This document shows, piece after piece, positions 9,118 through 60,474 of a stretch of 64,000 bases of DNA. The notes beneath the pieces are model-generated. The model saw nothing but the letters and a program-made list of their open reading frames with translations. It had not been told where the DNA came from and ran no database searches. The position numbers and the translations under genes were made by a program. The stretch is from Cyathus striatus (lineage: Eukaryota; Basidiomycota; Agaricomycetes; Agaricales; Nidulariaceae), in assembly GCA_025738555.1 (NCBI GenBank), contig JAOVFP010000003.1:2480001-2544000 (forward strand), read 5' to 3'. Each line of letters starts with the position of its first letter. Within the stretch, counting starts at the first letter, position 1.

Positions 9118-9217
9118 ATGGAAAGAGAACAGAGCTCGATGTTAGTGTAAATTATGTTTTTTACGGTAAACGAAACACTAATAATGCTTCATTTTAGCTT
9201 AGACTATGGAGCCATAA

Positions 9218-9226
9218 CTCACATAC
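9218..9226. repeat. Left target-site duplication of the giant element
   Basis: CTCACATAC, identical to 27718-27726; it lies directly outside the GGGC terminus. Confidence 0.88.
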
Positions 9227-9684
9227 GGGCTGCATACTTTTCGAGTTTTTGTCGAGTCTCACTTAAGTTATAGTCGAGTTCCACTATTGAGCTCGCTTAA
9301 ATTTTTCGAGTCAAAGTTAAGTTACCTCAAGTGGCCATTTTCTTATTTCGAGTGGACTCGAGTTCCCGATTTTTTTTTTTTGGTGAAAGTCGAGTTCCCT
9401 CGAGTGGACTTAAGTTCCTTTATTTCGAGTGGACTCGAGTTCCCTATTTATTTATTTTGGTGAAAGTCGAGTTCCCTCGAGTGGACTTAAGTTCCTTCTT
9501 TTTTTTTTTTTTTTTGGTGAAAGTCGAGTTCCCTCGAGTAAACTTAAGTTCCTCGCTTATTTTTTTTTGACTGAAAGTTGAGTTCCCTCAGATCAAGTTA
9601 AGTTAGTACCTTATGTTTTTCCAGTGAAAGTTGAGTTCTTAAGTTCCATTCGAGTTATCGGTAACTAGAAAAGTTGACGGCCCT
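9227..9684. repeat. Left terminal satellite block (GAGTT/AAGTT repeats)
   Basis: This block is made of degenerate GTCGAGTTCC, CTTAAGTTCC and TGAAAGTCGAGTTCC units with a local period near 60-85 bp and long T runs (9370, 9500). Its inner border (9648-9684, TCGGTAACTAGAAAAGTTGA then CGGCCC) is a direct copy of the element's right terminus at 27679-27717. The block therefore looks like a complete pair of ends on its own. No target duplication flanks the block itself, so I treat it as the element's long left end. Confidence 0.75.
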
Positions 9685-10439
9685 TTAGCTGCTGTGATAC
9701 GCCGGTTAACGACTATCAGAAGATCCGAGTAGTCCCAACATGAAGGCGTTGGGTTGGCATACAGATTGTATCTAAGAGGCTATATATACTTTCCATAGGC
9801 TTATGAGCACTATGGTGAACGCCTTTTCTCACTTAGCTCAACACTCCTACTCACCGTAGTACGCGCCTCCTCGCATGGAGTCGTGTAGCCGGACTAACTT
9901 GAAGGATGACTGAGGCCAAGGAAACTGCGAAGCCGGCGGGTGTCGAGGCAGTTTGCCCAATCCGAGTCCGTGAATCCGATAGGAGTAATAGTGTTGTCGC
10001 CATCTAGCGTAAGTTGTATATTTTGCGTTCCCTTGAAGTATTGAACGACGCGTATAGCTGCCCCTATACCGACGATGTGCTTAACGCCGCCAAGATCAGA
10101 GATAACCCACTGCGTATCATTCCCACGCACCTGCTCCGCTGATCGTGGTATCCCGCCCCCGCGCCCATTTTTTCTTACACACATCCTACCGTGGCGTTTA
10201 ACGCCCTACTATCCATCCCGTAGAGTAGTCAATCTGCTCTATCCAATTATTATCGTTATTCATTTGTTTGGAATAAAATGCGTTGGTAAACAACTTCGTC
10301 GGTGCCAAAATCACGTCGGTGCACGAAGTATGCTCCAGTTCTTAACATTTATTTCCCTGCCACCATTTCTACCATTGGCGCAGTATTTTTTATTTGACCA
10401 TCTTCGTTATATGCTAACTAATATCATCTATTCTTGTAG
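9685..10439. other. Spacer inside element with copia-type fragment
   Basis: Apart from the minus-strand copia fragment (9905-10080) nothing coding was recognised. The acceptor-like TTCTTGTAG at 10431-10439 with a branch-like GCTAACTA suggests a 5'UTR intron of the small gene that follows. Confidence 0.4.
9905..10080 (-). mobile_element. Ty1/copia polyprotein fragment (RNase H region), decayed
   Basis: The minus strand reads VVQYFKGTQNIQLTLDGDN followed by GFTDSDWANCLDTRR. This matches the conserved copia RNase H stretch around the TDxDWAxxxDTRRS motif. The frame breaks right after DTRR, and neither LTRs nor other domains are nearby. It is an isolated, dead fragment. Confidence 0.75.
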
Positions 10440-10802
10440 ATGCCCAAGAGGATCCCACCTATTCAACATCCCAAGTACGAAGAAAAGTTAGCAACCTACC
10501 AAGTAGGTATTTAATTTTGCTCCCTTTTTTAAGCTAACGTGTACGTAGTGTGGAAACTGTGTCATGATACTAATCGATCAAAGATACCACAGAGGTCGTA
10601 GACTTGGACCAATATGGAGGTCAGGAACGGTGGACCAAATTATCGAACATAAAAAGAAAAAATGTAAAGTAAGTGATTCATTTCTATTACTAGTACTCGA
10701 TACTTACACATCGAATCCTATTAGTACCTTGAGTTTGTCGTCCAGACTGGAAAGCGTACATATCGCTCAGTTGGCTGGGATCATATTCGTTACCCTGTGT
10801 AG
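10440..10802 (+). CDS. Small Tudor/chromo-like basic protein (86 aa)
   Basis: Three exons (10440-10502, 10549-10668, 10725-10802) joined by 46- and 56-nt GT-AG introns give an uninterrupted 86-aa protein beginning MPKRIPPIQHP. It contains RSGTVDQI, a lysine-rich turn, YLEFVVQTGKRTYRSVGW and DHIRYPV, then TAG. The alternation of short hydrophobic strands resembles a chromo or Tudor-like beta barrel, but no family is recognised. It lies upstream of the transposase on the same strand and sits wholly inside the giant element. The upstream acceptor signal at 10439 means an earlier exon or a 5'UTR intron is possible. Confidence 0.5.
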
Positions 10803-11154
10803 TAAGTATTTTTGTTTTATATTCTTCAAGTCCTCAACTTCCTATAGGACATGAAATCATTTTCTTTTGACTTTATACGTATTTTTGTTGCATGTACTAT
10901 TATTGTATTATACATTTTCGGCACTTCTTGACTGTATCATTAGTACTGTATTTAGTTCTTGTACGCATCGGAAAGATTCCTTATCATACCTCGCCTTTTA
11001 TTGCCTGTAGGTAGCTATCAAATGTCTCAGATTATCTTATGTAGTTCATGACTTGCCAAGTTAAACATGCAGGTGTACATGGCCTTACTTTGATGAGCAG
11101 TGTACAGGTAATTTTATGTAGGAGATAACATCGAAATCTACCATATAATAAACA

Positions 11155-11770
11155 TATGGTGTCAGTTATATATTAATAAAATGTACAACAACGATAGAAG
11201 AGCTTAAGCAAAGTTCTGTAATGCCTAACGGTACAGTTGGAAATACGGCACAATGCTCAGAAGTGCGTGGGAATTATTTTCATCATAAATGCATTCTGCT
11301 ATATTATAATATATGTTGCTATGTAAATCTACTGTCGATATGTCTGTAAAATTGACCATTTCGACGACTTTCTAAGGCTTCGGAAATTACCGTTTAAATT
11401 CACACGCTCTTCCGAGTGTCGCGCCGTACATCTAACTTCATTCAACTTCACCGTTAGGCATTACAGAACATCACTTAAGCTCTTCTTTCATGTTTAACAT
11501 TGTATATTACATGTTAAGATATCCAATACACTGCTTTATTGCTATCAATACATTAAGCAAGATGTATAATAAACATTTTTATGGTCAATTATCTATTAAT
11601 AAAATGTACAACAATGATATAAGAGCTTAAACGACATCCTGTAATGCTTAACGGTACAGTTGAGTGAACTTGGAATGACGGCACAACGCTCAGACGAGCG
11701 TGGGAATAAGGACGGAAATTTCCGAATCTTTAGAAAGTAGTTGAAACGGTCAATTTCACAGACATTTTGC
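11155..11770. repeat. Foldback: three related blocks, one inverted
   Basis: Block A (about 11155-11285) and block C (about 11588-11770) are direct copies. Both contain AATAAAATGTACAACAA, GAGCTTAA and TAACGGTACAGTTG. Block B (about 11338-11515) is an inverted copy with CCGTTAGGCATTACAG and CTTAAGCTCTTC. B and C could fold into a stem of about 175 bp with an 80-bp loop. It looks like a foldback or MITE pair. Confidence 0.7.
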
Positions 11771-12092
11771 AGTGTTACAATATATGAATGCATAGTATAA
11801 AAACAGGAGAATACATTTCTGTATAAAATATTGAGAAATGAGCCAAATCTGAGCTTATGGCAACACTTATTTATGGCAACGAAATACGGCGCAGGTTTTT
11901 AGTACGGTGAATTTATTAATAGCTGGAGCGTCATACATTGGAGTGTCATAGTACTGTAGTTCGGTTGCCGTAGCATTGGAGGCGCCGTAGTCTATGATTT
12001 GTCCTCTATTTTCCACATTTTCATTGTACATTTTTGTTCTCAGGTATAGATAGAAGTCTCTAAATAATATATTAACACTAAGATAGTGTAGA

Positions 12093-12109
12093 GCAGGCAT
12101 TCTGCCTGC
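12093..12109. repeat. Hairpin repeat GCAGGCA-TTC-TGCCTGC (copy 1)
   Basis: Perfect 7-bp stem with a 3-nt loop, preceded by GTAGA. The same motif occurs at 31976, 32701 and 33591. Confidence 0.7.
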
Positions 12110-12367
12110 ATGGTAAAAATGCATTTTTCATTACCATTACCTCACTCCTTACATACTGCTGTTTACCTCATGTCGCCTACCTACATAAATGTCATACATA
12201 TGCTTCGAGAAATTCAGCTTCGCATTTCCCCCCTTTTCTCTCTCTCAGCATTGAGCCAGGATATTTCCAGGCAATAGTACCAGTAGAGTAGTTGAACTTG
12301 ATTAACATCTATGTGATTATGCGCATTGCTACCGGATGGCCGGAGCGAGTAGTAATATGTCATTGAT

Positions 12368-15300
12368 ATGTCTGAGGCGCATCAGGTGAGTACATGTTAC
12401 ATGGGGATAATACTTTTTTTCTGCAGTTCGAAAAAGGGGGCTTTATTGAAACAGGCTCATTGCTTCGGACCTCAACAACATTTTTATCCCAGCTTGCAGC
12501 AAGTTATAGATAGTGCTAAACAGGAATCGAGAAATGGGATTTGTATGTACTAGTAATCAGTATTCATCTATAACTTTTTGCTTACACAATAGCAGACCAA
12601 ATTTGCGCAGTCGATTGCAAGTTTATTTGCTGTCGGACATAAACGCAAATGTTCCATTTCGAATCCCACATCTCCCCCTCCAAAGAAACTGAAAGCTTCC
12701 AGTGGCGAAGAGAAGACTGAAGGAGAGGGGAGTAGGAGGGAAACAACTACGCAGGATCTCCTCAATACGGCCGGTTCGTTACACTATAATGATATGCCCT
12801 CTACCTTTTCTAACATCCGCCACCAGGTGTGGTTATAGCCTGCTTACAGACCTACAAAAATGAAACACAGGACGATATTGATAAGAAGAATAAAATAATC
12901 GGCGAAGTATACGAACGGGCGGAACAAGGCATACCGAAAGGATTCGCACTCTTTGTAACACCTGAAGGTCAGTTATTGATGTATACTAAGACATTATTTG
13001 CTAGATACTATCTATCCTTTTGCATTAGGACATGTCCGTGGATATATTCCAAGGCCCATTGAAAGGGACATAACCGGACTACTTCCTGAGCCCATGGAAC
13101 CTATATGGTCAACTGCAACCCATGCACAGACACAAGTCAATGCTAAAGCTTCAAAGAATAACACTAACCGCCGGACTGCACATCGTACAGACGACAACAG
13201 CAACAGCGATGACAGTGACAATAACGGTAGTGACAGTACTGGCAGTGACAGCAATGACAGTGATAGAGAGATCGACGACGACGAAGACAATGGGAAGGGC
13301 CTGAACACTAAGAGCGGTCACAAGTTCGGAGGAATCAATGAACACGAGCTCAAAAATATCACCAAAACAGTCGAACTTTGGCCCGGTGAAGACCCTAATA
13401 CATGGAACACTTTTCCAGATGGGGAGTGGCATCACAGATACTCTCTGCGGTATTACGCTGATACAGGACGAATGAAGATCCAATGGGCGAATCAGTCATC
13501 TTGGGGGGTGAAAAAGAATGGAAGCCGAAGTGCAAAAAAATACAAAGGAGGCTACAGAAGTGAAAGAACTTGTCGAGGAGTCTTTACCTGCGATAATCCC
13601 CGTTGCAAAGTTATTATTCGCGCCAGAGCCACAGTGCAGGAACGAGTTGGGCAACAGGAGCGCAAGTGTAAGCAATGTAGGAACCCGATCACCTACATTA
13701 CATGCCACGCAAAGGCCATTACTTATGTTTATAAGACGGGCGTATATTTCCATCAGCATGGTTATCATCATCACGGCAAACCGGGTGACATAGTTAGTCC
13801 CTTACCAGTGCAGCGCGACAAGCTAAGGCAGGATGTCATCAAATATCCAAACGCTAAAGCTTCGGAGCTGAAGACAGGACCGCGAGATGTAATGGGCATA
13901 CCTGGGGTGCCAGCGACTGATTATTCCTCCTGCTATAACAATACCCACAGAATCGCTGTGGAAAGAAGACAGATCATTGAGTCTTTGGGGGGCCCCCCAA
14001 TGACGCTGGAGTTCAATCTCGAAGCATACAAAACATTTTCTAAAGCATATCCGACATTTATTGTCGCTGAGGATCTTATCGACAAGAAAGTTATCTCTTT
14101 CCAATCTACTTGGATGGCTTCCTTACTCATCAGAGCTGATTTTAATCCTTCTGGGTTAAATGGTGTTATCTCAGATGCCGCGCATGGCTGGTGGAAAGAC
14201 AGGTCTTCTCTCGTTATTATTTCTACACTCTATTGCACGCAAACTTTATCATGGATGCCGGTCTTGTTCACCTACAGTGACGGCGGAACGAGCTTACACT
14301 ACAAGCTTCATTTCCGGGTGTTATTCGGAAATATCTTCATTCTGTACAGAGAGAACAACGTGCAGATTACCGATCGTGCCTTCTCTGGGGTGTGTATTTT
14401 ATATGCTCTCTCTCTATAGATAACACACATTAACCATCTGTTAGGTTGTTGATTTCAGTGAGGCCCAGCGAAATGGGTATGTCGATGCGTTTGTTGAGAT
14501 GGCCATTGAAATGAATGATCCTCGGGACGTTGATGAACTGACGGTCACCGCTGGGGGTCTTCTGAAAGGCTGCCAACAGCATTTCAGGAGCAGCGTGAGG
14601 CGTATAAAGCATATGAAAGGAATCGCCGACGATTCCAATGGCTATAAATTCGAAATGAACGTGCTTCGTCTTCTCGATGTGCCGGCGAAAGAATTTGACC
14701 AGATTCTCGAGAAGATTTTTCTAACCTTCCCGAAGGTGAAGCCATGGCTCTCCTGGTATTTACGGCCCCACATGGCATCCATGATTTTCCAGTGTAAACG
14801 AACGATGGAGGTTACTGAATGGACATCTCTACCATCCACGACGAATGCTGAGGAAGCGCAGCACTTCAAGATGTACATGGCCCAGGGTCGAGACCACTAC
14901 TTTTACGAAGGCCTTAAATCGTTGAAGGCGCTTGCAGACGCGAACGAAACGACATTCAATGCTGTCATTAGTAAGTCTTTACTCTTATCTTAAGTTGGGG
15001 AAGGTACTGATATTTATTTTCACAGCTGGTGCACGTATTCGTTATGGAAAAGCTGCACCCTGGCAGACATATGATCGAAAGTCTCGCCATCCAGAAAGGA
15101 AGCCAATAAATGACTTGACAGATGAGGAAACATGGAAGGAAAGTAAAGCGACCGAATCGCCTGAAGAGGAGTCTCCAAAGAAAACATTGGTTGAGAATAA
15201 ACCGAAGAAGAAAAGAACAGAGAAGATCGTGAATGATGGTCGTCCTTACGATCCCAAAACAAAAAAATATCTAGATACCCAAGTGGGTCTAAATGAAGCT

Positions 15301-18300
15301 GCTAAGAACGAAGAGAAGGCTAAGCTCCTTCAAGCGACAAAAGCAGCGGATAGAGCCACAAAAAATACCACAAACAAAGTTACAACACAACGGAAGACTC
15401 GACAAGGACCTAAAGGTATTACGAAGCCTCAAAAGAAGAAAACTCAGCGCGAGATACTACCTGAAGGCATTACGAAGCCTCAAAAGAAGAAAACGTATGA
15501 CGATTATAGCTCCAGTATCTCTAATGGAGGGCGCGAGCCCAGTCTTTTTGCTTCCTTCTCATGGGAGGATAATTCGTGCTGGTTGGATTCCTCTTTACAG
15601 CTGTTATTTCAGGCTTTGTATCGTCGCCCCCGCGACTTCGCAACTGCGGTGAGGACTGTGCCACCAAACTGCCATCTGAAGGTAGTCGAAACATTATTTC
15701 ATAAATACTCGGGCTATCAAGCCGAAGTCTTTAGCCAATCCTCTGTAAAGAAGCTGTCAGAGGAACGGAATACATTTTTAGCCTATCTCGCAAATAATAG
15801 GATAGGAAGTGTTAAAAAGGGCGAATTTAACAATCTCTGGGTGAGTTGGTACGATCTATCACGTATACTTTCTTATTGGCTTCATGGTTAGGAATGGTTT
15901 TATGACGTTGTGAACGAGGCGAGCACAGAAAGTAAGTATAACGGCCACCTGTACTTTGAACGACTCGAGGTGGCCATACGCGTATGTTGTAAAGCTCTTG
16001 ACGCAAACGAGATTACACACTTGTACATGGAAAAAACGCCGAAACGGAAAAGGGCCGTTCATCTGAACATTAACGACTTTAACACATTCAAAGGAAATGC
16101 AAATACCTGGCTTCAACATCAAACCTGCTTTAAATACGACATCCACGATGTACTTCCCTGTTACAGAACCATTGATGGCGAGCCCAAGTGCACTGGGGTT
16201 AACTTCAATATTACGAAATGGTTATCTATCCCAGTCATACTAATCATCAATGTGGATGAGGGTTGTTTTACGCCTCAAGGCAAGGACAACTTACCTTTAG
16301 TTTGGAATTTTCCGGGGGAAATTCGACCTGACGGGGGGTCCGTTACTTACGAAATGATCGGGCGTGCTTTCTATGGTGCTAACCACTTTAGAACTCGGTA
16401 CATGTACAACGATGCAATTTACGACTACGATGGGATGGACAATGGTATCGCAACGGAGCTCACCGATGTGATGGCTAAGACTGCTCTGTACGGACAGCAC
16501 ATAAATCCTCCACCCGGCTTCTCCACAACCACGGTCGTTTATAAATTGCGAGGTGGAATAAGTTCACAAGAATCATTCTTAGAGCGACAGGTCGCAAAGG
16601 TTCTTGAGTTACATCAGATTAGCGTGGATACGGAGGGGCTACAGAAACCTCCGGTATTAAAGTACTGTGGAGCCGATCTTTCTCCAGAGGTCAATCGTCC
16701 ATGGTTTGCGAAGAAGAAGCAAGTGTATACTCGGGAATATACTAAAGTTATTTCCGAACTGCCCACAACGCCACCAGAAGAATCGTCAACTCTGCACCAT
16801 CGAGTTATCCCCATTACAGATGATGAGAGCGACGAACCTTCCATTCCGCCAGAGGAATCGTCAACTCAGCATCCGGAAGAGAAGCGTTCTTCGCAACTAC
16901 AAGCTGAGGAAGATGACGACTCTGTCGAAAGCGACTCACCTTTCAATTGTCGATGCGGTGTAGCTGGAAACGGCCCAGAACTCGATGCGGAGGCACCAGG
17001 AGCTATTCAATGCTACGGGTGCAAAGATTGGATGCACTTGGCTTGCCAACGAGGTGGACGAGGATCTTGGCTTCCAGAAGAAACAGATTTCATCTGTGAC
17101 TACTGCTCAAAGGGAGTGTCTTATAAACCGTAAGCAACCTTTTACTCACTTTATAGCAACGTTTCTTATATTTCCACCTTTCAGGCCAAAACTTCCGCCA
17201 AGGTGGCTACTAAGAAAGCAAAAAGATCGCTTACTGTTAGTTCTTCCTAGCCACATAAGAGATAACTACTAACCATTTTCGTCAACTAGAGCAGGGAGAG
17301 GCGCTTTAATCCTAGTCGGTTCGTATTGGTACCCAGGAAGGATTCTTAGGAAGGTCGAGCTAGGAGATGAGACGCAATGGGACGTAAAGCTTTGGAGGGA
17401 CTGTAGTATCCCTGAGAGCAATCAAGGAGAATTTCATATCTATAATGGAGTTAGGGAAAGCGAAATTGTTGATGAGCTGTGGACAGATATTCAAGGCCGG
17501 CGAGCGATACAGGTGATCATATTTTTATAGTATTAACATAATAGCTAACGAACATATCAGCTTGGTCATTGGAAGCTGGCGATTAATACTCCTTCCGAGG
17601 AAGACATAATCGAGAACTTCATAAAGACTCCGGTAACAAAAGAAATGGACAGAATCCTTGGTCCTCACGTCACTATACTGGATGAGCTACTCCATATCGA
17701 CATCTACAAAGTCGATCTCCGAAAATATAAGAACGTACCAGTACTTCATTATGTTCGCAGAATGGAGAAATACCCCAAGGAGCGAAGCCTAAGTTATATT
17801 CGAGGGACAGTCGACCATTATGGAAACCTGATGGCTCAGCAACGAGCTGAAATCGCGCATTGGTTCTCCATTAATATTGCTTCGGCATCGTCAGACAAGA
17901 AAAAGCCTTCGAAGTGTCATCCATCAAAGTGGATGCTTACTGTATCATTTGCGCACGCGGTGACATTATACATCATGTCGGTCTACAAGGATAGGCTTGA
18001 AGCCGGAAAGAAGCCTGTCGAAGCCGCATGGATATACCAGGTGGAGGAAAGGATGATGCCTTCTATAGATGTGGATCGCGAGTGCGTGACAATGTTTGAA
18101 CAGAGACTGTTCGAAAGTTCGATTGAAGCAGACTGCGCTGGAAGTGGAATTTGGGGATTCGATGTTGGGCCTCTCCAGAATGAATGGTTCCCCTATAATG
18201 AAGTCCCTGCTTACTGGCGAGAATCAAAATTTGAAGATGTTCAAGAGGATCTGGAGGTACGCTTATGTATGCTCATCCTGGACTGTCGTATTAATTATGT

Positions 18301-18337
18301 CGTCGAATAGGTTGGTCCTAACTATAAAGAAGAATAG
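12368..18337 (+). CDS. MULE-type transposase fused to USP deubiquitinase, PHD finger and Tudor-like domain
   Basis: A multi-exon gene of roughly 1,700 residues. Exons with GT-AG borders: 12368-12385 (tentative MSEAHQ), 12593-12774, 12828-12968 region, 13031-14389, 14445-14970, 15026-15840, 15892-17129, 17185-17235, 17290-17512, 17561-18256, 18311-18337. In order it has an acidic Ser/Asp-rich stretch (13180-13300) and a GCM/WRKY-like zinc head (13430-13780; CDNPRC, CKQC, HQHGYHHHGKP). The DDE core has Asp in SDAAHGWW (14174) and VVDFSEAQ (14451). A Lys-rich linker follows (15100-15500). The C19 ubiquitin protease has Cys 15577 (DNSCWLDSSLQ), His 16384 (GANHF) and Asp 16429 (YDYDGM). Then come a C4HC3 PHD finger (16945-17115), a Tudor/PWWP-like module (SYWYPGRILRK) and an unknown helical C-terminus. 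All catalytic residues sought are present, so it may be active. The 5' exons are the least certain part. Confidence 0.8.
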
Positions 18338-18345
18338 CTAGTATC

Positions 18346-18600
18346 AGTAAACGGTTTGTTCGGATGAATACGTAGATAGCCGTACCGTACCGAATGCCAT
18401 TATCCCTCCCTTCTTCATGTAAATCGGTGCTCGCGGCTGAGCTGTAACAGTAAACGGTTGGTTCTGATAATATATAAAGAACATTAGTTACATCTCGAAT
18501 ACGTAGACAGCCATACCTAATTCCGTTCACAGTACTGAGGGGAATACTATGTTTTTCTCCATCCCTTTCTCATGTAAATCGGCCCTCGCTGTTGAGCACT
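18346..18600. repeat. Diverged tandem duplication downstream of transposase gene
   Basis: CAGTAAACGGTT, AATACGTAGAYAGCC, CTCATGTAAATCGG-like and CTCGCxGxTGAGC blocks recur in the same order about 100-150 bp apart. The second copy carries small insertions. Confidence 0.6.
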
Positions 18601-18788
18601 CCATCTTCTTTTCTTAGTTACCATCGGTATTCAAACGTTTGTTGAAGAATATAATGTATTTTTATTATTTCTACTATTAGGTACACTCGAGATACTACTG
18701 CTACTATCTAACTATGGGAGTACGTGGTAGTAGTGGAAAGAAAGTGATGACGCGGCCACATCATGTGACTCCAAGTTTGGTTGTTTCG

Positions 18789-18827
18789 GTCATATTTAGG
18801 GCAGGGTTGGCCTGCCCTAAATATGAC
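18789..18827. repeat. Perfect hairpin, 17-bp stem and 5-nt loop
   Basis: GTCATATTTAGGGCAGG, GTTGG, then its exact reverse complement. A related CCTGCCCTAAAATA occurs near 21556, so this may be the tip of a foldback repeat. Confidence 0.7.
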
Positions 18828-18907
18828 GGGAGCGGTCAACACTGTGACCGTTACCATCAATTCTTTCATCTATTCACTCATGTTCTCACTAGTAACATAT
18901 TAGAGTA

Positions 18908-18985
18908 GCACCAGTATAAGTAATAGTAGTAGTAGTAGTATTAGTACAAGTAGTAGTAGTATTAGTATTAGTATTAGCAATAGAA
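18908..18985. repeat. Microsatellite of AGT/ATT triplets
   Basis: Runs of AGTAGTAGT and ATTAGTATTAGT with a few interruptions. Confidence 0.8.
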
Positions 18986-19320
18986 AGTCCTCCTCCAGAC
19001 GGGGTGGTGTGGACATCCAGGTCACTCTCAGATGGGTACCTTAGCCACTTTGACGTCGTCGGAAACAACGCAGCGGACAGGGAGGCTAAGCGTGCAATTA
19101 CCCACGGCTCGAGCTCGCGGAAGGAGCCTCCGAAGCTCCTCCACAAAAACTTACCATTCTCTAGGTCTGCTTTGCGTGCAGTTCATCATGATGTGAAACG
19201 ACTCAAAGCTGCCGCCTCCCACCACTGGAAATTCTCCCCCAGCCACCCACAGATCACCCGCAACATCTCCTCTAAGTCGACACTACTCCTCCATTAAGAC
19301 TCACTAGCCTCATCACACAG
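18985..19320 (+). mobile_element. Non-LTR retrotransposon fragment (RNase H domain)
   Basis: The plus strand reads VTLRWVPSHFDVVGNNAADR then EAKRAITHG. This is the third conserved block of a LINE-type RNase HI (WVPGHxGxxGNExADxxAK). The frame continues to a stop at about 19296. Reverse transcriptase is absent. The matching 3' end of such an element lies at 24990-25250. Confidence 0.75.
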
Positions 19321-20097
19321 ATGGTCGCGTACGGCGTGATTTCTGCGCAAAAACCTTTCGCGCGTCACGTCGTGAGCCGCACACACCGCGCTTCGCAGTT
19401 CACTCATTGCGGTTGAAGTTTTGAGGGTAACTTATAGTACATTATACATACGTCTTGTTTCTGTGTTATTTTCTTATTGATAATATGTTGTTCAGGATTT
19501 TCGGTTGTTTCAGTATGCTAATTTTAAGTTTATGTCATTTTAGGCTATTTATGTAACAAGAATGAACGTCGACATCGAAGCGCAACATATGAGTACAGTA
19601 TCGGTAGGATTCAGGCCTACAATAAGTATTCTTTTCCGTATGTAGAAAGTAGAGAATATTTTTATTAATATATTAGAGGTGATATCATGGTTTCAGCTGC
19701 ATTACAATTATGAAGATACCTAAGCAAGTGTATGTTTTCATGCATATCATTTCGTTATTGATTCAATTTTGTCTATAAATCCCGAGTGTCAGTATATAAC
19801 GACGACGGACTACGCATACACATTTTTCTCTTCTACGATACAATTTCTATACTTACACATACAAGTAGACACCCCTATGTCGCGACATATGGTACCCCAT
19901 CACCGATATTACACCCAACTACACGCGCTGAAAAGGGACATAAGTGTGATACAACAGTACTATCCATATACCTCAACGAGAATTCTATGGGATATTGAAC
20001 ATGTGATGTATGCTGCTGAGACATCTTTTTTTTCTGAGTTAATGAAGACTCAATTGAGTTGAGGCCTTTCAGTTAATCAAATGAAGGTCGACATACA

Positions 20098-20570
20098 GAG
20101 TGAAAAGTTAAGTTCTGTCGAGTGATAGTCAAGTTCAGTTAAGTTCCTTCGATTAAAAAGTTAAGTTCCGTCGAGTGGAAGTTAAGTTCCTTCGAGTCAA
20201 AAGTTAAGTTCCTTCGAGTCCAAAGTTAAGTTCTGTCGAGTGGTAGTCAAGTTCAGTTAAGTTCCTTCAATTAAAAAGTTAAGTTCCGTCGAGTGAAAGT
20301 TAAGTTCCTTCGAGTCAAAAGTTAAGTTCCTTCGAGTCAAAAGTGAAGTTCTGTCGAGTGGTAGTCAAGTTCAGTTAAGTTCCTTCAATTAAAAAGTTAA
20401 GTTCCGTCGAGTGAAAGTTAAGTTCCTTCGAGTCAAAAGTTAAGTTCCTTCGAGTCAAAAGTGAAGTTCTGTCGAGTGGTAGTCAAGTTCAGTTAAGTTC
20501 CTTTGATTGAAAAGTTAAGTTCCATCTAGCAAAAATTCAAGTTCCTTTGAATGTATGTTAAGTGAATATT
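20098..20570. repeat. Tandem satellite, 118-bp period, about four copies
   Basis: TTCTGTCGAGTG starts at 20113, 20231, 20349 and 20467, a constant 118-bp step. Each unit is itself built of GTTAAGTTCCTTCGAGTC-like subunits. The same subunits make up both ends of the giant element and the block at 26695-26965. Confidence 0.88.
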
Positions 20571-20960
20571 AAGTTACTTAAAGTCCATGTGACTTCATGG
20601 ATTAGAAGTGCTCCTGTACGATGTTCTAGATTGCTCTTGTTATTAAGTTTATTAGGTGGTAGTAATATAACGTGAGCAGTCGACTTGCTTATGTTGCATC
20701 TAGTGTTTTTTTTAAAAGTTTATGCTATGAGATCCTTAATATTATTCTTCAGTACGCATAGATCCCCGTAGTTGTACACTCGACTTAAAAGTATTATATA
20801 TCTCAATTTTTTTCCAGATTGTTTCAGCATTGAAAGTTCGCACAACAAAGAGTATCATATAGTTCTTTTTAGTTCAACTAGTTGTAAGGTTAGTTTTTTT
20901 AAAAAAGTTCACGGCATAAATAGTAGTGATATGATCTGAGCAGTTGCATATAATTCACAA

Positions 20961-21335
20961 GGTCAATTAGCCTAATGGTACAGTGCGAATAAACATTGTA
21001 CTAGTCTTTGGAAGGCTTTGGGTTCGAATCCGGAATGGACCTCTAGGTCAATAACTTCCGAGTTCTTTTTCCAGATTGATCTTAAGGTCAATTAGCCTAA
21101 TGGTACAGTGGCAAACCAACGTTGTAATATATTACGGAAGGCTTTCGGTTCGAATTCCAGTAAGTACCTGTTCATATATTTTATAATGTCTTTTAAAAGT
21201 TTGTGCCACGAATAGTAGTGATATGATCTGAGCAGTTACATGTAATTTCTAAGTTCAATTAGCCTAATGGTACAGTGTGAATAAACGTTATACTAGTCTT
21301 TGGATGGCTTTGGGTTCGAATCCAAATAAGTACAT
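20961..21335 (+). repeat. Three tRNA-like copies (probable tRNA-derived SINE heads)
   Basis: Copies at 20961-21041, 21086-21168 and 21253-21335 each have an A-box-like TAGCCTAATGGTACAGTG and a B box GGTTCGAATCC (GGTTCGAATTCC in copy 2), 50-55 bp apart. Copy 1 can form a partial acceptor stem (GGTC with GACC). T stems have mismatches and no clear anticodon loop is formed, so they are not called as tRNAs. The flanks (TAGTAGTGATATGATCTGAG at 20920 and 21210) are repeated too, giving a unit of about 290 bp. Confidence 0.6.
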
Positions 21336-21845
21336 TATTATATCGAGGTTTTCCAGTAACATTTTTCTAGATCGATTTTATTATTAAGTTTAGTGGGTGC
21401 CAATATAGATTCAACTAGTTTATGGTTTTTTTTATCAATTATTTCCGTTCCTTCACCATCGTAACAACTGAACACTAGTTAAAGTAGATAAGATACTGTA
21501 GGTACGCTATCCGTAAGTTTGATACGATCGTGAACATCACGTGATTATTTGAGCCTGCCCTAAAATAAACCATTTTCAATATAACGGTTGTGGGCGCCTG
21601 TTGATTCTCTGTCCGTTCCTTCACCATTGCAGTATCCGAACATTAATTACAGTAGATAAACTAGATACAGTAGATACAATAAGTAGATAACATAGATAAA
21701 CGTAGATACATATCACTGAGCGATAAAACATCCAGTCATAACGAAGCTACGCCGTAAAAGCAACAAAAACCACCAGGACCTGGGACCCACAACGAAGGCA
21801 CATTTCGATACAATAAAAACACCACCCGTAGCGATAAAAATAATA

Positions 21846-24843
21846 ATGGCTGAAGATAATTGTGCTTTGAATCACGACGGCACATTGAAGGATGCCAGCG
21901 AAATTCAATGGCATTACGACCCTGACGACGAGATGCCTCTACCGAAGAATAACAAGAGAGCAAGAATAGAGGTGATGTATTATGCTGAGAGTAACGAATG
22001 TATTATTGAAGTCTTTCATCTCGTACAGAGAATGTTCTTAGATATCGAAGCAAAGGTGGCTACTGACTCAGAGGACGAAGAGGACGGTGAGAATATGGAC
22101 GGTATGTATAATTCATTACCCGAATTCAAATTATCTGGCTGAAATTGACTATTGTAGGGTTTATCAATGATGAGGATCAGGATGAGGAAGATCCCAACAC
22201 CCCCATAGCACGACTGATACTTCAGCGCTCGCTTTACACGCGCTTACAAAATGAAGACAAGAAACAGCAAGTTATGGATCGCTTACGCTCAGGTGGAGGG
22301 GACCTTCTTGCGAGTTTACAAGCAGGACAACGCATTGATAATCACCGCAAACTTATCAACGATATTTTTACAATGTATGTTAACTCAAGTCCTAGTTCAT
22401 ACATAGGTGCTGTTTCGCAAGCGAGCAGAACTAGTTCTTCGGCAGTCAGCAAGCATAGTATCCCTCGACGCGGCCGTAATTCTGGGGACTGGCCCCTTTG
22501 GGATCTAGCGGTTAAGGTCAGTCAGTACAATACGGATATGTCTGAGATCTTATTTACATTTTATAGGATGGATCTGAGGAAGATGTGGTATTTTCCCTCA
22601 GCTTACATGGCGGCCCAAAGTATATCCGCAGTGCATTTTCGTTATCGGTCATCCCTGGTCACGTTTATGTGGAGGCTAAATGTCTCGACGATGTTAAAAC
22701 CAGCACCAAAATTTTGGCGGATGTATATCAAAACAGTATCCATGCGGCGCCAGCTACCACTTGGGATGTCTCCTTTTCAAAAATTGGAGAACGCTATATT
22801 CCATCCAAGAACACATGGGTCCGACTCAGAGGAAGGTTTCAATACGACCTAGGTTTTATTACAGATGTCTGCGAGAAGACTTTCGAGATCGACGTTGTTC
22901 ATATACCTCGAACAACGTATAGGAACTCGTCGAAACGAAAGCATGCGTCTAGTTCATCAAATCTGAAACCACCTTGCGAGCTCTTTAATCCTGAAAAAGC
23001 ACGAGAAATAAGCCCGAATACCTTTGAAGTTATTTTCGAAGATCAGAATAATCGAATTATTAAAGGATATAAGTTTAGGAAATCCTTCTACACACAAGAT
23101 GGGTTCATACTGCGTGAGCAACTCAAATCGGGATGCCATTATCAGGTTGAAGCAACCCCTACGATCGATGAGCTACGGTCATTCGAGAGCTGTAGCCTAA
23201 TTCCTAAAAAAAAATTGGAAGATACAAGGCGAGCTGTACTTTCAGCAACGATACGTATAGGTGATCAAGTGAAGGTTGTCCTACAGCAGCCTAAGGTTTT
23301 ACTCGCCTTCATAGAAGACATCTCAGAAGGAAACGCGACACTGAGACTCCTTGAATCCCCGACAATACTATTCGAATATCCGGTTATTCAACTCCAAAAA
23401 TGCTTCAAAATTGGTGATGGTGTTAGGGTGAAGTCTGGACATCTCAAGGGAATTGTTGGGATGGTATCCGATATACAGCCTTATGGGCAAATTGGCGAGG
23501 AGAAAGTTACCATCGTCACCTTTCCAATAAAGGTAGTTATAAACATTTTTGCAGTGACACGTTACTCAAACCGTTTTAATAGGGGCATCATGAGTCAGTT
23601 CGCTCATCGGATTTGGATTTTTGTAGCGAAGTCCATAGAAGCCGTACCTTTAAGGAGGAGAGTATGGCGGATCGTGAATATGAGGCCAGGATCATGCGAG
23701 AAGATCCGTATAAATTTCTTTATGGCCAATACGCAGTGGTTAAATTTGGCCCTCGTAAAGGGGATATGGGTATACTGAAGAGTGTGAATGCGGATGGGAA
23801 AGCCATTCTTGAAGTTCAGGCCCGCTTAATAAGCTCCAACCGTCAGGATGAAGTGTCAATAAAACACTTATATATTCCTGGGTAATTATAGATAAAATTT
23901 TGACTTTCTGCTCCTGCAAACTAATAATATATCGTAGGCATTACGACACGTTCCCAGAAATTTTCAAGGGTCTTAATTTAGTTGGAGATTCATCATCGTC
24001 AATGAATATATGTCCTACGCCTCAATGGGAAAATGATTTTGGGACTGGGTCCCATACGCCTGCTTGGAATCCCAGCTCAAGGACCCCGCAAGTAAGTATT
24101 TATATTTAAATGTGATATATGTGCTTAATTAAATACTGCTTAGATATCAAATGCCGCAGCTGCTGAATTTATCGCGTATCCGCATCGCAGTCAGTCAGTT
24201 TTAGTCGTAGTATTGGCATATACTGATAACAGTAATTATAGTTCCAGAGAACGAAGAATCAACTGGCTACTTGGAACCCTCTGGTCCTCTTCCACCATCT
24301 ATGCAAACTTTTGCTATAGGTGAAGGCTCTTCAGTACATTCAAATCTCATAAATGAATTCAATGGTGTGTATTGTTATTCCTCATAAATATTTCCCTAAT
24401 ATATTTACAACTTTGCAGATCATTGGATCAAACGGCTTGTCGATGGCGACAGTTCGTTTCTGAGTAAAAATTATCTCGATGTGATTATTTCGGGCTCCCA
24501 ACCGACTATGGCTAGCTGCGGATTTGAAAATGGGAGGTATGAAAACTGCACTGGTTTTTGCGTCGAAGTCGTTAATAGCGATCAATCAATCCGAGTGGAA
24601 TTAACTGGTAATATTGTAATTTCTGTACCGGCTAAATATGTCCATAGGGTTCCCCCGGAAAGGAGAGGTCAACTGGTTACGGCCGTGAATCACCTAAACC
24701 ACCAAATCTACAGGGGGGAATACCAGGTAGTCGATCTCAAGGGAGAGGCTGTCTTTGCCTATCCACACAAAGGAAAGAAAAGACATGATAGGGGGATTAA
24801 CATTCCTATGGGGGATCTCGCTGTTATTGCAAAAAGGCGCTGA
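21846..24843 (+). CDS. Spt5-like transcription elongation factor carried by the transposon
   Basis: Nine exons (21846-21971, 22029-22101, 22158-22516, 22567-23532, 23583-23881, 23938-24091, 24144-24189, 24242-24364, 24419-24843) all join in frame to give 856 aa. The N-terminus is acidic with FLDIEAKVATDSEDEED, the Spt5 signature. An NGN-like domain follows a WPLW motif (LSVIPGHVYVEAKCLDD, about 22620-22720). KOW-type modules follow (WVRLRGRFQYDLGFITDV near 22815; GDGVRVKSGHLKGIVGMV near 23415; VVKFGPRKGDMGIL near 23735). A short C-terminal repeat-like motif, SHTPAWNPSSRTPQ, matches the TPAW repeats of fungal Spt5. The C-terminal 140 residues contain a further barrel-like region (VPPERRGQLV). 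In the known family, Spt5 pairs with Spt4 and travels with RNA polymerase II. This copy is shorter than a usual fungal Spt5 and lies inside a mobile element, so it is probably a captured paralogue. Confidence 0.85.
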
Positions 24844-24989
24844 TATTTGCTCGCTTACCATATATTGTATATAGTATTTTTAGACATGTACATAGCTATC
24901 GGGTATTACTTACATTATAAAACTTTCTTGGTGCTATATAACAGCAATCGTTTGCTTAGGATTCGAGCACGCATGAAGAAAGAGAAGAG

Positions 24990-25250
24990 ATGATTAGAAA
25001 TACGCTAAACAAATCAACGCTCCCCCGCAAGCTCTCTACAGTGCTCGTATACCCCATCACAAATTACAACCTCCTGGGCTCCCACCACCATCGCATACGC
25101 AAATCAACGGGCAAGATATGTCTCTCTCCTGCCAACATGGCCCCGAGACCACTAATCACTTCTTCCTCCACTGCCAGACTTATAACGCCGCTCGCCTCAC
25201 CCTTGCGGACACTACTCACCCTTCTCGTAGATAAACTAGGATTTTAAAAA
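24990..25250 (+). mobile_element. Non-LTR retrotransposon fragment (3' end of ORF, zinc-knuckle region)
   Basis: One frame reads SCQHGPETTNHFFLHCQTYN then AARLTLADTTHP. This is the Cys/His motif (CxxxxxETxxHFLLxCxxYxxxR) found after RNase H in LINE ORF2. It is the piece expected to follow the RNase H fragment at 18985-19320, but 5.7 kb and the Spt5-like gene lie between them. Confidence 0.65.
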
Positions 25251-26174
25251 TGATATCGCGCTAGATGTCGATAGAGAGGACTAGTAAGTTTTGCTTCCCC
25301 ACAAAACACCAGACGCGACTCGATTCATGGCACGTCATTTTGCAAATACATGTACTATACAATTCCATTCTATTTCGTATCCATATTACCAAGACATACA
25401 GTAAGATATATGTACAATATACGATAGTATATGATTCCATTCCCCCCTGTATCCGTATTACCAAGATATACAACAAGATATATGTACGATGTTCCACAAA
25501 CTATATTACACTACAAATTATATTCAAAGCTGATAACAATCCTTGTTGAAGTCCATTCGAAGCTTTCCCGCACTACCCCATTTCACTCCACCGTTATCGA
25601 AATAATGCTCCCGGGTACGCGAGTATATGTGCATGGTCACTATAGCCTTTCCATTTATTTTGAATCCTCTGAGGGTATAGTGTGGTTCGCTGTCCGAATC
25701 ACTGTCGTGGAAAGGTGCCCTGAAGCACCAGCATTTAGAGGTAACAAGAAAGAGCGAGCAAAGACTTACAACAGGACCCAGTGTCGTATGTTGCAATGAT
25801 TTTCCTGCCACAAATTTCGATACACTGCGCGTCGGGCAGCGACCAGGGCTTCCATTCGTTCTTGGTATGTCATGCGATTGCAGACAGGACGGTAGACATG
25901 AATGGGCTATTACACATGTTAAGGGGATGAAAACGGAATGGAAAAATCGAAAACATACGGCCATTTCGTCGTTGGTTGGGACTGAAAGAAATAAAATGGT
26001 TATGAGAATAGAGAATAAAGACGAATAGATAATAGTTACCGATATAAAAGAATGTGTGAGATCAAGAATGAAGAGATCACGAAGAGGTCACGATGAGGAT
26101 AGGAATTGGCGTGAAGTGTTTGCCACGATTGGAATAAGCAATTAGAAGAGACGAAGGAACAAACATAACTTAAA

Positions 26175-26285
26175 CTCACAAATATCAATGCTCCCATCAG
26201 TCCTCCTCGATGTAGGCTCCTCGGCAGCCTCATTACCAACGATGACCCGATGACCAGGTACCCATTAAGCAGTAATAAATAAAGC
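26175..26285 (-). mobile_element. Non-LTR retrotransposon RNase H fragment, decayed
   Basis: The minus strand reads WVPGHRVIVGNEAAEE, the RNase HI third block of LINEs, with a stop just upstream. No other domain remains. Confidence 0.6.
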
Positions 26286-26694
26286 AATACGCACGCCAGT
26301 CGAACTACGAGTCCGGCATGCGCCACTTGAATAAGTGGGAGTGGATGTACGATGAAGAGGACAAAGTCATATATTCAGGAAGGGGACCTGCAGCAGAGAG
26401 CTGATGAATCTCGTCGTCACCTATTATGCTTGACAGGCCTTCGTTCTTTATCGCATTCCCACTAGCACATTCCGCCCTTCCGCATGTGATTGGAGAAATT
26501 AAATTTGAGAATAGTAGTTATAATTCCACAAAATATATCAAACGTGTATCTAAATGAGCTTGAGTTAGGGTAAATCTAAATGAATTCTGGGTAGTGCGCT
26601 TTGCCACTTGCTGGCCACAATGAAAAATGTATCTGAACCATTGAACAACGTAACCTGTATACTACATACTTGTAAAAATCAAAATAAGTAAAAG

Positions 26695-26965
26695 TCGAGT
26701 GTCTTCAAGTTCCTCGAGTGGAGTTAAGTTCCTCGCTTATTTTTTCGAGTGAAAGTTAAGTTCCATCGAGTGGAGTCGAGTTCCTCGCTTATATTTTTTT
26801 CGAGTGTCAGTCGAGTGGAGTTAAGTTCCTCGCTTACACTAAATTCGAGTGGAAGGTAAGTTACCATCGAGTTACCTTCGAGTGGAAAATGCCACTCGAC
26901 TCCACTCGAATTTGAGTCGAGTTCCATTCGAGTTCCACTTAAGTTCCAGTCGAGTGTCTAACTTA
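26695..26965. repeat. Third GAGTT/AAGTT satellite block of the giant element
   Basis: Units such as CGAGTGGAGTTAAGTTCCTC and TCGAGTTCCTCGCTTATTTT recur at 25-45 bp spacing. They are closely related to the blocks at 9227, 20098 and 27640. Confidence 0.8.
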
Positions 26966-27639
26966 AGTTCCTCAAGTTCCATAACAAAAAACCCATACTT
27001 TATGATTGTGCTCATTGTTGTCGTGATCCCTTACCTCGTTGTTTCCTACGCCCACCCCTGCCGCCGCGGATGTGTAAAAATAGCGCCATCACATCATCCA
27101 TCATTGTGCTCAACAGTGAGCACATATTTTGTGCATTCTTCTCTCAGTTTTTCGATTTTTCCTATGATTTTTTTTGTATAATATGGAGTTAGTTATTTTG
27201 TATGCAATATAACATCTTAGTTGTATAAATATCATGTACTGTGCTTATAGAAAATATTACATGAACAATAATAATTTCAGCTTTTCATACTATTTCATAG
27301 GTAGTTTAGCTGTACTGTCAAAGCATTTAATATATATTCATATTCACAAAAAAAATTGAGAGAAATCGCCCAAGAACTCAACCAGAAATGAAAATAATGG
27401 GTGCTCACTGTTTATGACGATGACGAGGCACATGAACGCGATCAAACGCGCCGCGGAAAACAACGTGCGGCACTCATTGATCAATTTGATGGACAGATCA
27501 AATTAATGATCGACATTCAGGGGCGTGGGAAATAATGAGTGCGGAGGCGCAATAGCGAGTAAGCACCAATCTAGCAACCCATAGCAGTGTTGGAATGTCT
27601 GTCATATACCATACATTTTACATTTTTCGAGTTACAGGT
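26966..27639. other. Spacer near right end of giant element
   Basis: No gene seen. A perfect hairpin TGTGCTCA-ACAG-TGAGCACA lies at 27105-27124, and a partial copy (GTGCTCACTG) at about 27403. Confidence 0.4.
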
Positions 27640-27717
27640 GAGTTCTGAAGTCGAGTTCTAGTCGAGTTCCGATCGAGTTCCATTCGAGTTACCGGTAACT
27701 CGAAAAGTTGACGGCCC
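27640..27717. repeat. Right terminal satellite block and TIR
   Basis: GAGTTCTAGTCGAGTTCC-type units end in ACCGGTAACTCGAAAAGTTG then ACGGCCC, the inverted partner of the left end at 9227. Confidence 0.8.
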
Positions 27718-27726
27718 CTCACATAC
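27718..27726. repeat. Right target-site duplication of the giant element
   Basis: CTCACATAC directly after the terminal GACGGCCC; identical to 9218-9226. Confidence 0.88.
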
Positions 27727-29348
27727 TCACGGTGTGTTAGTAACTTTCATCGCTAAAAGTACTTCTTGCTTGCTAACTATTAATCCGAAGCTGTGTTATA
27801 CTATGATTATATCTTGACATTCGGTAGGCAGAGTACTTTCAGTTTCAATACTCCATCTCCGGTCATTTATACTAAATACAACAGACGATGAAATAAATTA
27901 TATATGGAAGCGTCCCAAGCGGGGAAGCGCTTATTGGTTTTTCGTCAACCGATACGCCACGTTCTTCGGCACTGTACCAGTAGCTATTGCAGTATTTAGT
28001 TCATTATTACAAAAAGAGGTATCTAGTACCAAATATTTCCTTAATATATATCAGCTAACAGTTTGTATATTAGGTTCAGAGGTTTGCCACATTCAAATTG
28101 TGTGATGCTATTGACTTATTAGCAACCTCTCAGTAATGAGTGTAAGGGGTTTTACATCTTTCAGGAAGTTCTCCTGGTCTTCAGCCAACTAGTGGTTTCG
28201 TGTAAGCCTTTTCGCAATTTATAGAATTTTAAACTAATCTTTTAGTACTTCTCACACTTCGTGTTCATGCTCTTTATGAGCGCTCGCTTCGAATACTTCT
28301 GTTTCTGCTTGGTTTTGGGACGGTCCTTATGGGTATTTCAATCGTGCTTACTATTTTCTATGTTATTGATTGCGAAATAACACATGCTTTCCTATAGTGG
28401 GCTCAGCTTGATCAGCGGAGTTTACAACCTGAAATCGGAATAGGTTGTCGCATGATTTTGTCTCATGAAACGTAAGCAAACCTATCCTGTATTGACATTC
28501 AATATTTATGACAGTGTGTATCTCTTTAGATCAATTCGTACGGCAGATGCTACTCTATTTAATGTTCTAGCTTCTAAGCTTGATACAGGTTTTGGAGTAT
28601 CCTGGATAGCTCTTATGGTCTATGACACCACCATATTTTGCTTTACATTATACAAGACTTGGACAACAAGAAATCATCATGACATAAATACGCCCCTTCT
28701 TTCACTAATTCTTAGAGATGGTCAGGAATTTTTCCTGTCATACTATTATATGTGCCGTTACTAAATAATCCTAGGAACCCTATACTATGCGTAAGATTTT
28801 TCGGAGCCCGCTATTTAATACTGTTGTCATCATATTTCACAGAGCTATGGTCATGGTGGGTCTTGCAAACATCTTATCATACTATGTAAGTGATTAGCTG
28901 AGAGCTAGCTCCAACTTTTTCAGCCTACTCACTCTATTGTTTCTTAGTTTGCCAGTGTTAGTTATAAATCAACTGTGCACAAGATCTATGAAAATTTGAT
29001 AATGTATAGTCTGTCTTTAGTGGTGGAATTTCACAATTTGCTAGCAGGTCTAGAGAATTCTAATTTCAATTAATAAAAATTTTCTAACTCTTACTTTAGT
29101 ATATCAGTAACCATGATGTCCTGCCTAATGCTTAACCTGCACCAGAGCAATAACATAGGGATATATTCAAGTATAACAGATTTTGCTCCAGATATCCAGT
29201 TTGCTCATAGCATAACTACTATGCAAGAGCAGTCAAATTGCTTAGAACATGAAGTGTAATTAGTACATTAGAACATGTACAGAGCTTTGAAAAAGTTAGG
29301 GAACTGCTAGACTGGGTTTAGGTGTTTGTATATTTCATAATGAATATA

Positions 29349-39105: not shown

Positions 39106-39206
39106 TGTCCCATGGCCCAGCTGGTTAAGGCGTCCGACTGTTATCAAAGTGTTGTTATGTACACAAGTATATCGGAAGATCGAGAGTTCAAGTCTCTCTG
39201 GGACAG
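39106..39206 (+). tRNA. tRNA-Asn (GTT) with a 27-nt intron
   Basis: A full cloverleaf can be drawn. The acceptor TGTCCCA pairs with TGGGACA (39106-39112, 39199-39205); discriminator G. D arm GCCC...GGC. Anticodon stem TCCGA/TCGGA with loop C-T-GTT-A. The T arm is GAGAG-TTCAAGT-CTCTC. The intron 39144-39170 sits one base 3' of the anticodon, the canonical position. The mature length would be 74 nt. Anticodon GTT specifies asparagine. Confidence 0.9.
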
Positions 39207-39497: not shown

Positions 39498-40403
39498 ATG
39501 GACGAGTCGCCCACCGTTCTCTTTGACTCATACGAGCAGGACTTTCGCCATCTCATCCAGAGCGTTGAGCAGAAACTAGGAGTCGATGCCAAAGACCAGC
39601 GAGGAGGTGAGCAGTCGTCATGTGAAACTCAACCCCAGCTCATGCCACGACCATAGAACAACGCAAAGCAGCTTTGAGGAAGGTGGAGATCGAGCTCGAT
39701 GAGGCAGATGATATTGTGCGTACATGATATACCTATGTTACCCTGGAAAGGTACTGAACCTATGCAGGTCTCCCAACTCGAGATTGAGATCCAGGGCATC
39801 CCCAAGTCTATCAAAGGACAGTATGTCAGCAGGCTGAAGCAAGTGAAAGCCGATCTCGTAAAGTACAAGAAGCTGTCGAAGGACATCCACTCCCAAGCGG
39901 CTAGAGCTGACCTTATGGGTGGCTTCAGACGGGGCGCTGGCAACTCCCCTTCCGATGACCCATACGGAGAGAACGGCGAAAGGAGTAGACTTCTTGCAGG
40001 CACCGAGACGCTCGCTGATGGAAGTCACCGACTACAAGACTCTACCGGCATTGCCCTGGAAGCGGAGGAACAGGGTGCAGATATCTTAAGGAACCTACGG
40101 CGGCAGAGGGAACAGATTGAGAATACGAGGGACACGGTTCGTATACCCGGGTTATATCTTATTCGTTTCTGACCCTCCGCGTGTCTCAATAGCTCCAGCA
40201 AGCAGATACCCACATTGACCGGTCGAGTACCACAATAAAGGGCATGATTCGGCAGTAAGTTTTCCATGTTTCTCGAACTTTGCTTCTTCTCCCCAGCTTA
40301 ACCCCGCAGTATGTATAAACAGCGTGTTATCATCAGTCTCATCATAGCGTTCTTCGTGATCATGATAGGCGTGATCCTGTACTTCAAGCTTGTCCGCCGG
40401 TAG
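39498..40403 (+). CDS. VTI1: v-SNARE of the VTI1 family
   Basis: Five exons (39498-39606, 39657-39715, 39768-40136, 40193-40254, 40310-40403) join to 230 aa, close to the usual length of about 217-230. The N-terminal Habc-type helices start MDESPTVLFDSYEQDFRHL. The SNARE helix runs from TGIALEAEEQGADILRNL through LQQADTHIDRSSTTIKGM, with the zero-layer Gln in LRRQREQIENT. A single C-terminal membrane anchor follows (VIISLIIAFFVIMIGVILYF) and ends KLVRR. In fungi Vti1 is the Qb-SNARE for Golgi, endosome and vacuole fusion. The gene looks intact and expressed-like; introns are 50-56 nt. Confidence 0.92.
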
Positions 40404-60400: not shown

Positions 60401-60466
60401 AGCATATGCAGTCGACGAGATGTCTGTGTCCTGGGAATTGTTATTCAGAACGCCGTTTCGAGGCAT
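57430..60466 (-). CDS. Dynamin-like GTPase, copy 2
   Basis: A full-length tandem paralogue of 52292-55360. It starts at 60466 with MPRNGVLNNNSQDTDISSTA and has the same exon layout. G1 GGQSAGKSS is split by an intron (about 60245-60160). MECTMSSSAESW is at about 59975, DLPG near 59632 and TKPD near 59270. The GED reads LAELLQEDPAISKQRK (about 57800-57750), and the tail is Ser/Asp-rich with a basic GKRGKKGWKRLFSTP end. The basic tail is longer than in copy 1. Differences are spread over the whole gene and both frames are open, so both copies may be functional. The 5' flank is itself duplicated (60475-61025). Confidence 0.84.
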
Positions 60467-60474
60467 GGTAAATG

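Follow-up and report, generated by a model that had tools for sequence, protein, structure and literature searches.

A probable giant MULE-type DNA transposon of Cyathus striatus encoding a transposase with USP-type and PHD domains and an Spt5 paralogue

Mutator-like elements (MULEs) such as Muta1, MuDR and Hop are the described systems closest to an element that we found in Cyathus striatus within a stretch of 64,000 nucleotides (C3:2480001-2544000, the window in the following) of a genome of 107 Mb on 24 contigs, and which is very probably an autonomous giant (18–22 kb) cut-and-paste MULE-type DNA transposon recently inserted into an agaricomycete DUF6533 (seven-transmembrane-type, 7TM) gene. 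These MULEs have 8–11-bp target-site duplications, terminal inverted repeats (TIRs), an N-terminal zinc finger and a DDE core with a CxxH motif, all of which recur here. Their TIRs range from 14 to 500 bp in the relevant part of PMC6446971, and arthropod members reach 1.4–10.0 kb in the size range quoted from PMC13359780, in contrast to the size of our element. MULE-type elements with a regulatory second gene are also described, as plant Vandal encodes an anti-silencing protein and a Phytophthora MuDR carries a SET methyltransferase gene, and this cargo is proposed to act on silencing (excerpts of PMC12730594); their cargo and hosts differ from those reported here. The same excerpts describe basidiomycete DNA transposons with a TET/JBP dioxygenase, proposed to escape silencing. 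DNA transposons carrying regulators are already known in fungi, and these share with our element a host-type regulator as cargo, although the cargo itself is a different one. The lineages named in the abstract of PMC12730594 do not include MULE/MuDR, and the words 'spt5' and 'ubiquitin' are absent from its main text. Starships are giant cargo-carrying transposons of fungi as well, but they use a tyrosine recombinase and belong to the Pezizomycotina (PMC12134995).

The element proper covers positions 9227–27717 of the window, corresponding to 18,491 bp, as defined by its inverted ends and by the borders shared with other copies (oriented features are on the plus strand unless marked with a minus). 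Its left TIR GGGCTGCATACTTTTCGAGTT (9227–9247) and right TIR AACTCGAAAAGTTGACGGCCC (27697–27717), detected as inverted-repeat pair I3, are imperfect with 81% complementarity over 21 bp, and an 18-bp palindrome, CGAGTTACCGGTAACTCG, is located at the right end (27685–27702). Exact word search and flank pairing identified CTCACATAC as a perfect 9-bp target-site duplication at 9218–9226 and 27718–27726. It occurs exactly twice in the window and the chance expectation for finding it anywhere is 0.59, yet both occurrences abut the ends of the element. The initial annotation had proposed an 18.5-kb unit with TIR-like ends and a perfect 9-bp duplication, which is borne out, except that its borders 9218 and 27726 are the outer limits of the duplications and not those of the element proper.

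Using both ends as queries against the whole genome, as the initial annotation had suggested in order to find copies with their own 9-bp duplications, we scored the best 40 of 157 candidates for the left end (70 match rows) and the best 40 of 179 for the right end (40 rows), so all copy numbers are lower bounds. Eight other large and 20 small loci were fetched, and both ends were present in the fetched DNA of seven of the nine large copies, the one in the window included, and of 13 of the 20 small ones. Different borders in other copies, which had been named beforehand as an outcome speaking against a single transposon, did not appear: all six further large copies (19.2–22.0 kb) have the same two borders, five with a perfect duplication of 9–10 bp and one with a 10-bp duplication containing one mismatch. 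Taking large and small paired copies together (n = 20), 17 show a perfect 9–10-bp duplication, two have one mismatch in 10 bp and one (L036) has none, and none of 380 combinations of left flanks with wrong right flanks passed the same test. Nine fetched copies (2/9 large, 7/20 small), for which the partner end was not found in the fetched stretch, stand outside this count; a site resembling the right end, 0.4 kb inside L040 and L043, was assigned to the internal copy and not to the partner end. Apart from local insertions and deletions, the paired large copies (18.5–22.0 kb) are largely collinear. When the small derivatives (1.7–4.5 kb) are compared with a large copy, the six longest matches lie in the first ~0.49 kb and the last ~1.07 kb of the latter. 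The copies form a mobile family in which members of autonomous type occur besides non-autonomous ones, and the proposed single multi-gene DNA transposon is seen in seven large copies, the one in the window included, with common ends, genes and outer duplications. As everything comes from a single assembly, an assembly artefact or a chance likeness of the ends has to be considered, but we give it practically no credence since the seven collinear large copies sit on seven contigs with different duplications of their own, which rules the artefact out. Between 25352 and 26087 the identity of the window copy to four other copies falls to 78–79%, while the matches of C6 and C5 there are 92% and 98% identical; an exchange between subfamilies is perhaps the source of this drop.

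The insertion has interrupted a host gene. When the element is removed in silico, the joined flank matches four paralogous loci with 68–74% DNA identity, besides the two halves in the window itself, and the alignment to each of the four paralogues runs across the junction without a gap. This comparison with paralogues agrees with the earlier proposal that a 7TM exon is closed upon removal of the element. The predicted exon is split into a 5' part (9198–9226) and a 3' part (27727–27735, predicted end), ends with ...DYGAITHILTV followed by an intron, and lies upstream of DUF6533 (PF20151, E 5.9e-14), whose domain match begins just past the junction and is encoded by the next host exons within 27791–27991 (predicted 27791–27823 and 27885–27991).

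Two long gene chains, A and B, are open over their full length in the window copy, which distinguishes it from Pack-MULEs with their gene fragments and lack of a transposase. Gene A (12534–18337; predicted exons 12534–12542, 12593–12773, 12827–12967, 13029–14389, 14445–14970, 15026–15840, 15892–17129, 17185–17235, 17290–17512, 17561–18256 and 18311–18337) encodes a protein of 1,755 aa which consists, in this order, of a GCM1-type zinc finger, a MULE-like D-D-CxxH-E core, a USP-type domain, a PHD finger and a conserved tail. Zinc finger and core are encoded by 13029–14970. For the finger, profile A1 (five of seven families aligned) matches the GCM1 structure 1odh with E 2.2e-7, and PF03615 (GCM) was found in five of nine homologues with E values from 8.7e-5 to 0.019, each below the curated cut-off. 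The core residues D493, D567, C607xxH610 and E701 are invariant in 5/5 aligned rows at the level of the motif, their D-D and D-E spacings are nearly equal to those of Muta1, and in the predicted model of homologue P0012 the first D sits in a strand and a strand directly precedes the second. The USP-type (C19) domain (15520–16548, with the intron 15841–15891 inside) shows the Cys and His boxes (Cys924, His1176), and the USP fold is seen in the predicted model of the homologue P0012. It is followed by the PHD finger at approximately 16990–17129. In family C13 gene A is conserved over its whole length. As it encodes one continuous protein, the deubiquitinase is part of the transposase and no separate cargo; thus its earlier prediction as something carried by the element holds for the domain, not for a gene of its own. 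Further transposase families with 33–53% identity are present in the same genome, many with USP matches shortly downstream. At C18:743-781 kb a 53% identical transposase is found with 91–96% identical Spt5-region pieces nearby, which may be mosaic or nested elements.

Relatives of gene A are widespread. In public databases 36 proteins match the 526-aa transposase part and 27 of them carry an organism name, all labelled hypothetical or uncharacterized; we take their genera (Mycena, Suillus, Armillaria, Trametes and others) to be Agaricomycetes. With a strict pattern, 6 of the 36 showed the Cys box, 5 the His box and 4 both USP boxes, many of these models being partial. An apparent rarity of gene A, as residues 225-1260 scored in the whole protein gave none at E ≤ 0.001 among 5,789 candidates, was overturned by these 36 matches, and the null result was likely caused by the length filter. 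Such transposases have probably been overlooked in many mushroom genomes and are not rare.

The assignment of protein A as a MULE-type transposase, as made in the initial annotation, is supported by the duplication length, the TIRs, the GCM1-type finger and the motif spacing, with no match to a MULE profile. From known MULEs the element differs by its ~1,755-aa protein fused to USP and PHD, by a second gene encoding an Spt5 paralogue and by this missing Pfam match. Pfam scans of part of the element's frames (8 and 10 frames, and four further sequences) showed no Starship-like tyrosine-recombinase captain, DDE motifs being present instead, and the KDZ domain PF18758 was found neither in the element among the matches listed nor in the scanned pieces of gene A. 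An assignment to Rehavkus would fit the 9–10-bp duplications, the PHD finger in the transposase and the tandem arrays before the right end, since 9-bp duplications, a PHD finger and a minisatellite near the 3' end are the features given for it in the relevant section of PMC6446971. That section describes Rehavkus from insects and annelids only, and in our protein the PHD finger follows ~660 residues past the catalytic E and beyond the USP domain, while arrays are present at both ends; the host group, the USP domain and the Spt5 gene differ as well. We consider this classification, a likeness by description, improbable.

Gene B (21846–24843; predicted exons 21846–22101, 22158–22374, 22435–22516, 22567–23532, 23583–23881, 23938–24091, 24144–24189, 24248–24364 and 24419–24843) encodes 853 aa, of which residues 62–488 match 8qsz with E 8.2e-14 over the acidic N-terminus, NGN and KOW. 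Pfam scores are just under the cut-offs (NGN 21.4 bits vs 22.4, KOW5 24.1 vs 27). We call it a paralogue because, of the long stretch of C-terminal repeats present in full eukaryotic Spt5, only a remnant of about two repeat-like units (SHTPAWNPSSRTPQ) aligned, so the elongation factor reported before for this element can be refined to an Spt5 paralogue. A genome search with PF03439 gave a strong match of 72.5 bits at C20:1396051, which is probably the Spt5 of the host itself, and a weaker match of 27.3 bits at C22:1289612. Spt5-like loci are numerous, with 343 first-look candidates, of which 53 were scored. After merging of rows by hand, gene B follows on the same strand at most 25 kb downstream at 23 of 27 gene-A loci, and 10 of 33 gene-B loci are without this gene A. 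All eight public relatives found among the scored candidates sharing most words are from Cyathus striatus (Agaricales) and 34–78% identical. The open-licence PMC literature searched gave no description of a transposon carrying Spt5, with Repbase and subscription papers lying outside this search. At L056 (C3:739600-744100) a WD40-like gene lies upstream of an Spt5-like gene whose N-terminus (MAEDNCALN) is nearly the same, and the Cyathus protein P0009 has both WD40-like and Spt5-like parts, a second setting in which multi-copy Spt5-like genes occur. KDZ elements as home of the remaining Spt5-like genes were dismissed, as two tables compared by eye showed no co-location among the matches listed.

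Clusters of CGAGTT/TTAAGTT-type motifs occur at 9.2–9.65, 20.1–20.6 and 26.7–27.7 kb, namely as a left subterminal array (9236–9660), an internal array with a period of 118 bp between genes A and B (20098–20577), a right subterminal array (26685–26970) and CGAGTT repeats adjoining the right end (27623–27690). In addition, an internal copy of the right end (9642–9683, direct-repeat pair D13) is 95% identical over 42 bp with its core altered to AACTAG. Such a copy is found 0.42–0.49 kb from the left end in 9/9 large copies, in all nine with AACTAG compared with AACTCG at the external end in 7/7; as the internal site reads AACTCG in some small copies (L029, L040), the change is not family-wide. 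Plant multi-TIR MULEs likewise possess an additional terminal repeat inside the element that lacks a duplication of its own, although they are mostly non-autonomous, and divergence of this repeat was suggested to favour outer cleavage (PMC3310237). Arrangements of this kind could also be explained by a composite origin, in which two older mobile units, one with the transposase and one with Spt5 and both terminated by a CGAGTT array, were fused, Spt5 perhaps being a functionless passenger. The array between the two genes, the internal right end 457 bp from the left end, the gene-B loci without this gene A, one of them beside the WD40-like gene, and the one gene-A family without a nearby Spt5 would agree with this. 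Against it stand the seven large copies, whose outer ends and genes are the same and which have outer duplications. They show that the whole now moves as one unit, and we regard a composite origin in the past as unlikely.

Several results weigh against the reading as an autonomous MULE-type transposon with functional cargo. The Pfam MULE profile matched none of five family members and none of nine homologues, and the second D is 43 residues from the His of CxxH compared with 24 in Muta1 (D283, H307). The catalytic core gave no fold match, the P0012 fold search having in effect covered its USP half alone, and profile A4, built from 36 rows, yielded neither GCM1 nor any other solved structure at E ≤ 1. 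For the USP stretch of the window copy itself neither a Pfam match nor a USP among solved structures was obtained, the latter also being true for the C13 sequence alone, and folding of the window stretch alone gave a mean predicted confidence (pLDDT) of 34.9. In family C13 gene A is present with no Spt5 within ~7 kb downstream.

The decay of the copies was measured on an exon model built from the window copy, which favours this copy. With this model one to eight stops were found in gene A of each of the eight other copies (two partly covered), and gene B has stops in six of seven others, while coverage of the seventh is limited to 227 codons. Most substitutions between copies are C-to-T changes at CpG, and the CpG observed/expected ratio of gene A is 0.945 in the window copy compared with 0.283–0.883 in the other eight. 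The window copy looks youngest, and the depletion suggests that the older copies are CpG-methylated. Raw ratios of replacement to synonymous rates (dN/dS) are 0.39 for gene A and 0.42 for gene B, which is no measure of selection because it is confounded by CpG decay, and their use as proof of selection was withdrawn after the CpG control. For transitions in CpG-prone contexts the replacement/synonymous ratio (N/S) is 0.83 (A) and 0.87 (B). Outside such sites gene A has N/S values of 0.66 for transitions and 0.34 for transversions, a moderate replacement deficit, and gene B has 0.60 for transitions with 18 replacement and 0 synonymous transversions. Divergence is lower in the introns of both genes than at each of the codon positions, arguing against a simple selection reading, and constraint on gene B is unproven.

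For the autonomous MULE-type transposon we can propose a model of its life cycle. The zinc finger of protein A would bind the terminal and subterminal CGAGTT arrays, and its catalytic core would cut the ends and insert the element with a stagger of 9–10 bp, while the internal right-end copy might escape cutting owing to its altered core. Small copies with the same ends could be mobilised in trans. The targets of USP and PHD may be chromatin that is ubiquitinated (or SUMOylated), or else protein A itself, and the Spt5 paralogue may aid transcription of the long element, or compete with host Spt5 or hijack elongation. We infer that all three could help the element to escape silencing. H2B ubiquitination and Spt5 belong to one elongation pathway, which makes the USP/Spt5 pair suggestive and no more.

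Some further features of the window should be mentioned. Inside the element, 9894–10205 (−) holds a frame with what we take to be a copia-like RNase H motif (DSDWANCLDTRR), and frames at 18920–19297 and 24960–25247 resemble, by eye, C-terminal parts of LINEs (GNNAADREAKR and ETTNHFFLHCQTY). Outside, Rfam identified a tRNA at 39106–39206 (52.2 bits) which is absent from the ARAGORN output, perhaps owing to an intron, and a 250-bp tandem repeat with 2.0 copies is located at 60465–60963. Pieces of ordinary host genes encode a v-SNARE (39678–40169), an F-box protein (45248–46810, −) and a dynamin GED (52550–53203, −).

More broadly, the relatives in other mushrooms might belong to a pan-agaricomycete lineage of giant MULE-type elements in which the transposase is itself a chromatin enzyme (finger, DDE, deubiquitinase and PHD), and to which Cyathus-like fungi would have added a captured Spt5 paralogue, acting on co-transcriptional ubiquitin signalling and Pol II elongation against silencing by CpG methylation; we put this forward tentatively, as a scenario that is more doubtful than probable. 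If true, a transposase-borne deubiquitinase and a transposon Spt5 would widen the range of silencing countermeasures known so far, which comprises DNA demethylases and histone methyltransferases, and transcription elongation as a battleground between genome and transposon would become testable.

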